Shown: positions 52,028-59,098 of the stretch, piece after piece | Position numbering within the stretch: position 1 is the stretch's first letter | How the letters are laid out: every line of letters starts with the position of its first letter | Origin: Methanolobus bombayensis | Lineage (GTDB): Archaea > Halobacteriota > Methanosarcinia > Methanosarcinales > Methanosarcinaceae | NCBI RefSeq assembly: GCF_017873415.1 | Contig: NZ_JAGGKD010000001.1 | Coordinates: forward strand, 1 to 64,000 | DNA: 64,000 nt | Reading direction: 5' to 3' | Notes under the pieces: generated by a model | Database searches by the model: none | What the model was told of the DNA's origin: nothing | What the model saw: only the letters and a program-made list of their open reading frames with translations | Program-made: the position numbers and the translations under genes

Positions 52028-53566
52028 ATGAAACACAATATTCACATTGGGTTTTATTGTTTGCTGGCTTGTGTTCTTGCCTTGTCCTTTTCATCTTCTG
52101 CCGCGTATCTGAATCACTCATTCCTTACGGGGCCTTATGAAAACGGACCGGAAGTGACTGCGGAATGTATCTCGTGTCACGCTCAACAGGCTGCAGACAT
52201 GCTGAACTCAACTCACTGGCTCTGGACAACATGTTCAGAATGTTGTGGAGACGAGGCATATGAAGGACTTGGTAAGCGTACAGTAATTAACAATTTCTGT
52301 GTTGCCATTGCTTCAAATGAACCACGCTGTACTTCCTGTCACACAGGTTATGGCTGGGAAGACGATACCTTTGATTTCACAAACGCATCGAATATAGACT
52401 GTGTAGTTTGTCACGAGACTACAGGCACCTATGTAAAAATACCCACAGGTGCAGGCGCAGTTGATCCATCTGTCGATCTTGTAGCCGTAGCTCAGAGTGT
52501 TGGCAGTCCTTCACGTGATACATGCGGAGGAAGTTGTCACTTCTTCGGTGGAGGAGGAGATAATGTAAAGCACGGTGACATGTCATCTGCATTGCTTGAT
52601 CCTTCAAGAGAACTTGATGTTCACATGGGCGGCATGGACTTTGATTGTCAGAATTGTCACAAGACAACAGCTCATAATGTAGCAGGCCGATTTGCAGGTG
52701 TTCCGGGCTCTGAATGCAGGGTAGAGTGTTCAGATTGTCATGGCGACACACCGCACCAGGGTGTTTTCAAGGAAAGACTCGACGGTCACTCTGATTCAAT
52801 AGCATGCCAGACATGCCATATACCCGAATTTGCCCGTGAAGTACCGACAAAAATGTACTGGGACTGGTCACAGGCAGGCCAGGACATAGATCCGATACCA
52901 ACTGATGAGTACGGTAAGGAAACTTACAACAAGAAGAAAGGATCTTTTGTCTGGGGAATGAACGTTACACCAACATATGCATGGTTTAACGGCAGTTTCG
53001 ACAAATATTACCTGGGGGATGAAGTAGATCCCGATGTTGTTACAGTCCTGACAGCTCCACTGGGAGACCGCTATGATCGTGATTCCAAGATATATCCATT
53101 CAAGATTCATCTTGCAAAACAGATCAGTGATGCAGAATACAATTATCTGATCATCCCTGACCTGTTCGGAGGAGAAAACTCTTACTGGGCTAGCTTTGAC
53201 TGGGATAAGGCAGCTAGAGCAGGAATGGAATATGTGGATGTACCTTACAGCGGTCAGTACGAATTCGTGGAAACTTCATTATATGAAAGTATAAACCACG
53301 AAGTGGCTCCTAAAGAAGGTGCTCTGAAGTGTAAGGAATGCCATCTCGATGATGGTGCCATGGACTTCGAAGCTCTCGGTTACGAAGGTGATCCGATGAT
53401 CGTGGGTGAGAGGTTCATGTCAGAAGAGGAGATCAAAGAGATCGAGTCAATGGAAGCTGAATCAGAAGAATCAGAAACTGAAAGCTCTGAGTCAAGTCCT
53501 GGATTTGAATTTTTCATTGGAGTGTTCGGTCTTCTAGCTGCATTGTTAATTGCAAGGCGTAAGTAA
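52028..53566 (+). CDS. octahaem cytochrome c, tetrathionate reductase (OTR) family, PGF-CTERM anchored
   Basis: 512 residues with signal peptide (about 1-26). Haem sites: Cys47, 101, 125, 207, 234, 260 and 435 each start CxxCH; Cys166-Gly-Gly-Ser-Cys170-His171 is CX3CH. That makes eight. The stretches TAECISCH, TSCHTGYGWEDDTFDFTN, VCHETTGTY and GGGGDNVKHGD match the octahaem OTR family known from Shewanella. A CSECC at 69-73 lacks His. The C-terminus has an acidic Ser/Glu linker, then PGF (about 491), a helix and ARRK, the archaeosortase A signal. So a membrane-anchored outer-face cytochrome, probably for redox or electron export. SD AAAGGGGGT precedes ATG. Confidence 0.87.
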   Translation: MKHNIHIGFYCLLACVLALSFSSSAAYLNHSFLTGPYENGPEVTAECISCHAQQAADMLNSTHWLWTTCSECCGDEAYEGLGKRTVINNFCVAIASNEPRCTSCHTGYGWEDDTFDFTNASNIDCVVCHETTGTYVKIPTGAGAVDPSVDLVAVAQSVGSPSRDTCGGSCHFFGGGGDNVKHGDMSSALLDPSRELDVHMGGMDFDCQNCHKTTAHNVAGRFAGVPGSECRVECSDCHGDTPHQGVFKERLDGHSDSIACQTCHIPEFAREVPTKMYWDWSQAGQDIDPIPTDEYGKETYNKKKGSFVWGMNVTPTYAWFNGSFDKYYLGDEVDPDVVTVLTAPLGDRYDRDSKIYPFKIHLAKQISDAEYNYLIIPDLFGGENSYWASFDWDKAARAGMEYVDVPYSGQYEFVETSLYESINHEVAPKEGALKCKECHLDDGAMDFEALGYEGDPMIVGERFMSEEEIKEIESMEAESEESETESSESSPGFEFFIGVFGLLAALLIARRK

Positions 53567-54039: not shown

Positions 54040-54984
54040 TTACTCCTTCCTGCGTCCGAAGACAAATGCAAGTCCAATGATTGCAACCATTGGTAGTGCT
54101 ACTGTTGGGAATTCGGGTATCTCTTCCATGCTGTGGATTCCTGCATCAACCAAACTGTTATAGTCACCAGCGTTTAGCGTGAAACAACTTGTAGCTCCAC
54201 CAGTCTGTGCATCGCTGTCTTCATCTTCTTCTCCCTGATCTGCTAAGGTGAATATATATCCTGAAGGGCTAACGAACTCAATGTAATAATCTCCTGCTTC
54301 GAGGTCAGTGAATTCATAGTATCCATCTTCATCAGTGAGTTTTGTATCCACCAGTTGACCTGAGCACGTATACAGCTTAACTGTGACCCCTTCCATACCA
54401 TCTTCATCATCTTCTTGTATTCCGTTGACGTTCAGGTCATTCCAGACATAGTTTCCTACGCCAGCCGGCTTTGGAGTTGGTTTATACATTCCAGCATCCC
54501 ATTTATCATAGTTACACCATATTTGTCTCCATTTTGTATTTCCAGTAATAACATCTGCATCACTGTCTTTCCAGGGTTTGGCATTGTCTTTGGGACTGAA
54601 TACATATCCTTCAATAAGCTCAAATTTGACGTAATAATAACAACCGTAACTGGCTGAAAATGAGTATTCTCCATCTTCATTGGTTTTAGTATCTTGGATC
54701 TGAATCCATTCATCTTTACAGAAATCATATTTGTACAGATACACACTTACTTCTGGAATTCCTGGTTCGCCTTTGTCTTGTTTTCCATCCATATCCAGGT
54801 CATTCCACACTTTATCACCAATAGATACATGACATGCAGAAGCCTGTGTAGATAGTGCAATTAAGGCTACGATCATTAGTATTGCCACTCTGGCAATTTT
54901 AAAAACATAGTTAGGTTTGCTTAATCTTTTTAACGTATTACCACCACCATGATAGTATGCTACCACGTTTTTCTTGATAAGCAA
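54040..54984 (-). CDS. SdrD/Cna-B-repeat surface protein with PEF-CTERM
   Basis: Signal peptide around residues 29-50 (IARVAILMIVALIALSTQASA). Two SdrD B-like domains follow, each starting GDKVWNDLDMDGKQD or GNYVWNDLNVNGIQED (about 55-150 and 177-280), with Ca-binding-like Asp/Asn loops and GYVFSP/GYIFTLA strands. The C-terminus PEFPTVALPMVAIIGLAFVFGRRKE is a PEF-CTERM sorting signal, for a different archaeosortase than PGF. The longest frame begins at TTG 54984, but a TATA box at about 54990-55000 suggests transcription begins near 54970; GTG 54966 or an initiator after GGTGGTGGT (54940-54948) is likelier. Confidence 0.78.
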   Translation of the reverse strand: MLIKKNVVAYYHGGGNTLKRLSKPNYVFKIARVAILMIVALIALSTQASACHVSIGDKVWNDLDMDGKQDKGEPGIPEVSVYLYKYDFCKDEWIQIQDTKTNEDGEYSFSASYGCYYYVKFELIEGYVFSPKDNAKPWKDSDADVITGNTKWRQIWCNYDKWDAGMYKPTPKPAGVGNYVWNDLNVNGIQEDDEDGMEGVTVKLYTCSGQLVDTKLTDEDGYYEFTDLEAGDYYIEFVSPSGYIFTLADQGEEDEDSDAQTGGATSCFTLNAGDYNSLVDAGIHSMEEIPEFPTVALPMVAIIGLAFVFGRRKE

Positions 54985-57481: not shown

Positions 57482-59098
57482 TTGGCAGGACAGCCCACTT
57501 ACGCTTTAGGGAACAGAAACAGGTCCCGGACAAGGGATGCACAGAGCATTAATATCCTTGCAGGGAAGGCAGTTGCAAAAGCAGTCAGAACAACACTTGG
57601 TCCAAAAGGAATGGACAAGATGCTTGTTGACGGACTTGGAGACATAGTCATCACAAATGATGGTGCGACAATCCTCAAGGAAATGGATATCGAACATCCG
57701 GCTGCAAAGATGGTAGTTGAGGTATCAAAGACCCAGGACGATGAGGTCGGTGACGGTACAACAACCGCAGCAGTACTCACTGGAGAACTTCTCACAAAGG
57801 CAGAAGAACTCATAGAAAAAGGTGTTCACCCAACAATCATATCCGGTGGTTACAGGCATGCAGCAGAGAAGGCAGTTGACATCTTAAAGACAATCACAAT
57901 CGATGTCTCTACCGATGACAGGGAAACCCTGATGAAACTGGCAAAGACAGCTCTTACCGGAAAAGCAGCAGGTGAGTATAAAGACTTCCTTGCAGAGAAA
58001 GCTCTCGATGCAGTCCTTTCAGTTGTGGAAGAGTCCAATGGCAATATCTCAGTCGATGTAGATGACATCACAATCGAGAAACGTGAAGGTGGCAGCATCC
58101 TTGACACAGAACTTGTCACAGGTCTTGTTATCGACAAGGAAAGAGTCAGACCAAACATGCCAAAGAAAATCGAAAATGCAAAGGTTCTCCTTGCAAGCTT
58201 CGCAATCGAATTCCAGAAGATCGAGAAGAGCGCAGAGATCAAGATAACATCCCCTGACCAGATGAACCTCTTTGTTGAACAGGAAGAGAAAATGGTCAAG
58301 GAAATGGTAGACAAGATCGTTGCAAGTGGTGCAAACGTAGTATTCTGCCAGAAAGGTATCGATGACCTTGCACAGTACTATCTTGAGAAAGCAGGTATCT
58401 ACGCATGCAGAAGAATCACAAAGAGCGACCTCAAGAAGCTGGCAAAAGCAACCGGTGCAACTCTTTTCCAGGATGCAGCAGATATCAGACCGGAAGACCT
58501 CGGCGAAGCTGAAGTTGTAGAAGAACGTGAGCTTCATGGTTCTAAGATGACATTCCTGCTTGGATGCAAGGAAGCAAAGACCGCTTCACTTATTCTTCAC
58601 GGCGGTACAACACACATCGTCGACAGTCTTAAACGTGCTCTTAACGATGCGCTATGTGTGATCGGTGTAGGACTTGAAGACAAGAAGATTGTTGTAGGTG
58701 GCGGATCCACTGAGATCGAACTTGCACTCAGACTCAGGGACTATGCAGCAACACTCAAGGGTAGAGAGCAGCTTGCAGTCGGTAAGTTCGCTGAAGCACT
58801 TGAGATCATTCCACAGACACTTGCAGAAAATGCGGGTCTTGACCCAATAGACAAGCTCATTGACCTCCGTGCACAGCACGAGCAGGGCAACAAGAACATG
58901 GGTCTTGATGTCTACACCGGAAAGGTAGTAGATATGTATGAGAATGATGTCCTGGAACCACTCAGAATTAAGACACAAGCAATCAATGCAGCAACCGAAG
59001 CAACAGTGATGATCCTCAGGATCGATGATGTCGTGGCTGCAAGTGGCAAGAGTGGTGCAATGCCACCAGGTATGCCACAGCCTGAGATGGATATGTAA
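57482..59098 (+). CDS. thsA: thermosome subunit (group II chaperonin)
   Basis: 538 residues from TTG 57482 behind AGGAGGT. ATP-driven chaperonin that folds proteins in a double-ring complex. Equatorial motifs [18 protein letters not shown] (38-55) and [15 protein letters not shown] (90-104), apical [18 protein letters not shown] and C-terminal [20 protein letters not shown] are typical. The tail is Met/Pro/Gly-rich. A TATA box (TTATATAG, about 57370) lies 110 bp upstream, leaving a long leader. Other subunits may lie elsewhere; the symbol is a group label, since alpha/beta type cannot be told. Confidence 0.95.

Follow-up and report, generated by a model that had tools for sequence, protein, structure and literature searches.

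Tetrathionate-reductase-type octahaem cytochromes (OTRs) and the heptahaem cytochrome MmcA are the closest described relatives of the protein analyzed here. The OTR of Shewanella reduces nitrite, hydroxylamine, and tetrathionate, activities that, in the accounts of PMC4484225 and PMC11024163, are known for the Shewanella protein only. Its electron donor is a small tetrahaem cytochrome (PMC4484225), and haem 2, described as the catalytic haem, is ligated by a conserved Lys (PMC11024163). OTRs of Methanosarcinaceae, encoded beside genes for a thermosome and a biotin transporter, have already been reported (Nat Commun 2024, PMC11024163).

The window, a 64,000-nucleotide stretch of the Methanolobus bombayensis genome, carries an intact ORF with an ATG start at positions 52028-53566 of the plus strand. 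The 512-residue product and its features are listed below, all on the plus strand:

52028..53566 (+), octahaem c-type cytochrome of the OTR family, 512 residues, a single-gene unit (TIGR04315 and PDB 1SP3 matches)
52028..52102 (+), putative N-terminal signal-peptide-like hydrophobic helix, residues 1-25 (sequence; helix 2-22 in the model)
52166..52180 (+), haem site 1, C47ISCH51 (motif scan)
52232..52246 (+), clade-specific Cys-rich loop C69-x2-C72-C73, CSECC (alignment of OTRs)
52298..52300 (+), C91 of the NNFC segment, counterpart of Cys64 in Shewanella OTR (1SP3 alignment)
52328..52342 (+), haem site 2, C101TSCH105, counterpart of the catalytic haem of Shewanella OTR (motif and 1SP3 alignment; role from PMC11024163)
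52400..52414 (+), haem site 3, C125VVCH129 (motif scan)
52523..52540 (+), haem site 4, C166GGSCH171, the CX3CH site (1SP3 alignment; homologous to the CX3CH of MmcA)
52568..52570 (+), K181, counterpart of Lys153 in Shewanella OTR, ligand of catalytic haem 2 (1SP3 alignment numbering)
52646..52660 (+), haem site 5, C207QNCH211 (motif scan)
52727..52741 (+), haem site 6, C234SDCH238 (motif scan)
52805..52819 (+), haem site 7, C260QTCH264 (motif scan)
52850..53347 (+), Pfam Cytochrome_cB region, residues 275-440 (PF11783)
53330..53344 (+), haem site 8, C435KECH439 (motif scan)
53483..53563 (+), PGF-CTERM-like tail, residues 486-512: PGF, hydrophobic helix, ARRK (PF18204 above its cut-off; TIGR04126 marginally below)

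The window protein belongs to the OTR family (TIGR04315). The family profile scores 558.7 bits against a cut-off of 375 and is covered from position 6 to the end (6-440 of 440), PF11783 scores 218.6 bits against 22.1, and the Shewanella OTR chain 1SP3 aligns with residues 31-457 at 506.6 bits. An AlphaFold2 model, built without haems (mean pLDDT 77.7), retrieves 1SP3 as the only significant structural match (E 2.7e-54, TM 0.74/0.86). Membership in the MmcA family (TIGR04314) is rejected, since that profile reaches only 41.6 bits against a cut-off of 250 and the haem 2 motif C101TSCH of OTRs is present together with K181. The eight putative haem sites, seven CxxCH and one CX3CH, follow the OTR order and are in register with 1SP3. 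A preliminary description, made from the letters of the window, had proposed an OTR framework with seven CxxCH motifs, Cys166-x3-Cys170-His171, and GGGGDNVKHGD, NNFC, and GYGW segments, in a protein distinct from MmcA; all of these elements are found in the ORF, and both the assignment and the distinction stand. The catalytic residues are kept as well. K181 aligns with K153 of Shewanella OTR, the number we take the Lys ligand of haem 2 to carry, and is invariant in a 32-row alignment of OTRs; C91 aligns with Cys64, presumably the active-site cysteine of the 1SP3 work, and is nearly invariant among the 32. One table in PMC13188914 includes a form of TIGR04315 that GenBank annotates as a selenoprotein.

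The departure from the canonical motif lies at haem site 4, where C166, C170, and H171 align with CGSCH of Shewanella OTR across a one-residue gap, precisely where the expanded motif had been placed beforehand. All 17 OTRs of the Methanolobus/Methanohalophilus clade have CX3CH, versus none of 22 other aligned OTRs. The 17 clade rows comprise the window protein, 13 further whole-genome loci, and three named relatives (from a Methanolobus sp., Methanohalophilus profundi, and a Methanosarcinaceae MAG); three pairs of rows have the same protein sequence, probably from one species sampled twice, and most rows come from separate genomes. The comparison set consists of 19 bacterial OTRs and three from a sister group, g14, within the same archaeal family, all with plain CxxCH at this site. 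All 17 clade sequences read CGG[SNY]CH, the third spacer residue being S, N, or Y, and the underlying codons vary (TGC GGA GGA AGT TGT, TGC GGA GGT AAC TGT, TGC GGA GGC TAC TGT, and others). A sequencing or assembly error, which would reduce the extra codon to an artifact, is therefore rejected as practically negligible: the same mistake would have to recur in 17 sequences, the majority of them from separate genomes, and in varied codons.

The expanded motif is also not a general archaeal trait. It had been asked whether Gly168 or a neighbor is an insertion in all archaeal homologues; CxxCH in g14, and again in two OTRs (L048 and L049) from a different family of the phylum, rules out universality. 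Because g14 reads C-G-G-C-H, the simplest placement of the insertion is immediately ahead of the second Cys, which suggests Ser169 (S, N, or Y in relatives) as the added residue instead of Gly168. In a tree computed without the motif and loop columns, a single CX3CH change is needed within OTRs and the 17-row clade has support of 100/99 (100/100 with those columns included); CX3CH thus appears from the sequences to have arisen once within OTRs, on the stem of the Methanolobus/Methanohalophilus clade. One divergent OTR-like octahaem protein of g14 (L044, genome G106) has a CX4CH at site 6 and a PGF tail and lacks the GGGG..VKHGD segment.

The same stretch occurs in MmcA. The MmcA of this genome (G000:C7, 677 bits) carries a CGDNCH that aligns with the CGGSCH of the OTR in a matching context (GAPGKALCGDNCH vs GSPSRDTCGGSCH), so that OTR site 4 and MmcA site 3 are aligned as the homologous haem with CX3CH in both, a feature common to the two proteins. 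Across MmcA loci, 46 of 47 have CX3CH at this haem; CxxCH is found in the remaining one (L068), where the extra residue has been lost (CSNCH). Despite the heptahaem name of the family, an eighth CxxCH close to the C-terminus is found in many MmcA proteins from outside Methanosarcina; examples are L045 (G000:C7:120751-122298) and loci of Methanolobus, Methanohalophilus, and others.

In the joint tree, long and fully supported branches separate the OTR and MmcA families, and OTRs with CxxCH fall between the CX3CH-bearing sets. Over the whole OTR and MmcA tree, three motif changes are needed, a count that by itself leaves their direction unfixed. With CxxCH in the sister group g14 as well as in the bacterial OTRs, the simplest reading of the sequences is a parallel gain of CX3CH on the methanogen OTR stem. 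Gene conversion, in which the OTR motif would have been copied from MmcA, would account for the identity of the haem site in the two families and for the resemblance of CGSNCH or CGDNCH in Methanolobus MmcA to CGG[SN]CH in the OTR. Both flanks, at the level of codons and residues, are plainly OTR-like (GSPSRDT before the motif, HFFGGGGDNVKHGD after it); any converted tract would therefore be only a few codons long, and we regard such a copy as quite improbable next to the parallel gain.

Whether a haem is attached at the stretched site can be judged from the same homology. LC-MS/MS of MmcA from M. acetivorans found all seven haem peptides with a +615.17 Da shift, including those with CXXXCH and CXXXXCH (PMC11024163). 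The present genome encodes a CcmE with a CxxxY motif (C-PSK-Y) and two CcmC/CcmF-type proteins; for CcmH, no profile match over the cut-off was obtained in this genome, and CcmH is accordingly set aside as a loading factor. An archaeal-type Ccm of this kind has been described for M. acetivorans (PMC9084895). Because the homologous CX3CH of MmcA is haem-loaded, a haem at OTR site 4 is very likely and special machinery is unneeded. The preliminary description had envisaged a haem on an expanded motif that needs a tolerant maturation apparatus; the expanded site is real, and the need for new machinery falls away, for the Ccm of Methanosarcina loads haem on the CX3CH of MmcA, which answers the maturation question in principle. 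A site without haem, or with one bond only, would leave an effectively heptahaem protein with a decaying motif, as the departure from the canonical spacing and the CxxCH of all bacterial OTRs examined might suggest. We consider such decay very unlikely: all 17 clade members retain the two Cys and the His while their third spacer residue is S, N, or Y, the Cys and His columns of site 4 are invariant in the 32-row alignment, and the homologous site of MmcA does carry haem in the report cited above.

A second feature sets the CX3CH clade apart. Between HWLW and GKR, three Cys are found in 17 of 17 CX3CH OTRs (CSECC, CSECGC, CGDCEC, and similar), versus no Cys in 20 and one Cys in 2 of the 22 other OTRs. 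The pattern C-x2-C-x0/1-C is seen only in this clade of OTRs, and its gain maps to the same tree branch as CX3CH. In the AlphaFold2 model, which contains no haems, pLDDT falls below 50 at residues 69-75. As a conjecture, the loop might be a disulfide or a metal site. A more radical interpretation would join the two features into one new active-site arrangement, noting that the stretched motif lies ten residues before the catalytic Lys: the Cys cluster C69/C72/C73 would be redox-active or metal-binding, the substrate would have changed, and the stretch in MmcA would have been selected separately, tuning the haem to the potential of methanophenazine. We find this doubtful.

The C-terminal tail described beforehand, PGF, helix, and ARRK with archaeosortase anchoring, is present in the sequence, and the two PGF-CTERM models fall on opposite sides of their cut-offs. 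PF18204 scores 23.0 bits on the tail, above its cut-off of 18.8, and archaeosortase A (ArtA), the enzyme that recognizes PGF-CTERM (PMC5244752), is encoded in the same genome (270 bits, cut-off 75). The PGF, the hydrophobic helix, and the basic end resemble those of PGF-CTERM proteins processed by ArtA, although the window protein falls 0.1 bit below the NCBIfam cut-off (TIGR04126, 24.4 vs 24.5 bits). All full-length OTRs of the archaeal family, g14 included, keep the PGF tail. Many bacterial OTRs end in a hydrophobic helix without PGF, and tethering as such is therefore not specific to archaea. From these signals we infer that the tail would tether the protein to the membrane. The haems had been placed on the outer face of the methanogen; they would indeed be outside, more exactly on the outer side of the cytoplasmic membrane and beneath the S-layer. 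Multihaem proteins with PGF or PEF tails were noted earlier in ANME (PMC5244752). A second PGF-tailed multihaem cytochrome of this genome, with five CxxCH and a weak resemblance to ExtKL, lies outside the window about 62 kb from the OTR (L104:2763-4211, minus strand; G000:C1, about 115.8-117.2 kb) and adjoins flavoprotein and ferredoxin-reductase-like genes. A noisy genome-wide CxxCH scan gave one more multihaem cluster on contig 1 among the matches listed.

Taken together, we think it probable that the window protein is an exported, eight-haem, ArtA-tethered methanogen OTR that reduces a small oxyanion with electrons from methanophenazine. The protein would be exported and would receive its eight haems from the archaeal Ccm (CcmE with CxxxY, no CcmH), one of them on the CX3CH of site 4. 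ArtA would process the PGF tail, leaving the OTR on the outer face of the cytoplasmic membrane, where reduced methanophenazine could supply it with electrons, either directly or via MmcA. The haem chain would carry these electrons to haem 2 with its Lys ligand, the site at which a small oxyanion, or a product of it, would be reduced, serving detoxification or an auxiliary electron sink. By analogy with Shewanella, the only precedent, we favor nitrite or hydroxylamine over tetrathionate as the substrate, with low confidence.

In a different role, with the catalytic site a relic, the protein would act mainly as an electron conduit, as MmcA does, and link the cell in either direction with external acceptors or with partner cells (Fe(III), humics, DIET). 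Several observations are in keeping with this role: the tail signal for a surface tether, the second PGF-tailed multihaem protein in the genome, the reduction of AQDS and Fe(III) by the relative MmcA, and a potential range of Shewanella OTR similar to that of MmcA (both reported in PMC11024163). Three points weigh against it. First, the haem 2 motif and its Lys, lost in MmcA, are invariant here, as expected under selected catalysis. Second, no MtrCAB-like or S-layer-fused cytochrome lies beside the OTR in the window. Third, extracellular electron transfer in Methanolobus was still undemonstrated as of 2026 (PMC13374861). We hold a pure conduit to be possible but rather unlikely and prefer a reductase, because the catalytic residues lost in MmcA are kept here. 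Extracellular electron transfer and detoxification of an S or N oxyanion had been offered side by side in the preliminary description; with the catalytic Lys and Cys kept, the former is not supported over reduction of a soluble oxyanion.

The surroundings of the gene match the locus known from relatives. RNase H lies upstream of the OTR, which is followed by a small convergent membrane protein, an SdrD-like PEF-CTERM protein, aspartate-semialdehyde dehydrogenase, the thermosome, and the biotin transporter:

57482..59098 (+), thermosome subunit, a conserved neighbor that adjoins the OTR in several relatives (reported in PMC11024163)
59262..59816 (+), BioY-like biotin transporter subunit, a conserved neighbor (translation and synteny; name from the synteny in PMC11024163)
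59821-60636, ATPase after the BioY-like subunit

The BioY-like protein has no clear family-model match. The thermosome gene comes immediately after the OTR in Methanohalophilus and a related MAG. None of the neighboring genes in the window points to N or S oxyanion metabolism or hints at the substrate, which counts against the reductase reading. The SdrD-like B-repeat surface protein (54040-54984, minus strand) has a PEF-CTERM tail (33.1 bits, cut-off 23), and PGF and PEF sorting signals thus lie less than 1 kb apart in the window. At E<=1e-20, OTR matches occur in 8 of the 27 genomes listed for the genus and in 18 of 112 for the family (4 of its 14 genera), a patchy presence that marks the OTR as dispensable and likewise counts against that reading.

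The OTR family, the methanogen OTR locus, and the loading of CX3CH by the maturation machinery are already known, and the advance is for that reason modest; the stretched site is genuine, but it varies a known theme only modestly. The new findings are that CX3CH is shared by a whole clade of OTRs, that it apparently arose in parallel in MmcA at the same haem, and that a Cys loop is linked to it. The two families offer a natural experiment on haem-motif spacing, in which the same haem in two distant paralogues has acquired the same one-residue stretch, apparently independently, under a Ccm without CcmH. The presence of the OTR further singles out methanogens in which oxyanions could be reduced at the cell surface, a trait akin to respiration.

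Among known systems, the Methanosarcinaceae OTRs of PMC11024163 are of the same family and locus, and the window protein is a member of that set; the main text of that paper counts eight haem motifs in OTRs and leaves CX3CH, the PGF tail, and the Cys loop unmentioned. MmcA is a distant, Rnf-linked relative that shares CX3CH at the homologous haem; in contrast to the window protein, to which it is 26% identical over part of the length, it lacks haem 2 and the Lys of OTRs, has CX4CH at the equivalent of OTR site 6, is encoded with Rnf, and has no PGF tail. The OTR of Shewanella oneidensis (SO4144, PDB 1SP3) differs in its CxxCH at site 4, its lack of the Cys-rich loop, and its periplasmic location without a PGF tail, and yet it shares with the window protein 48% identity over the structural alignment, the fold, the eight haem sites in order, and the residue pairs K153/K181 and C64/C91.
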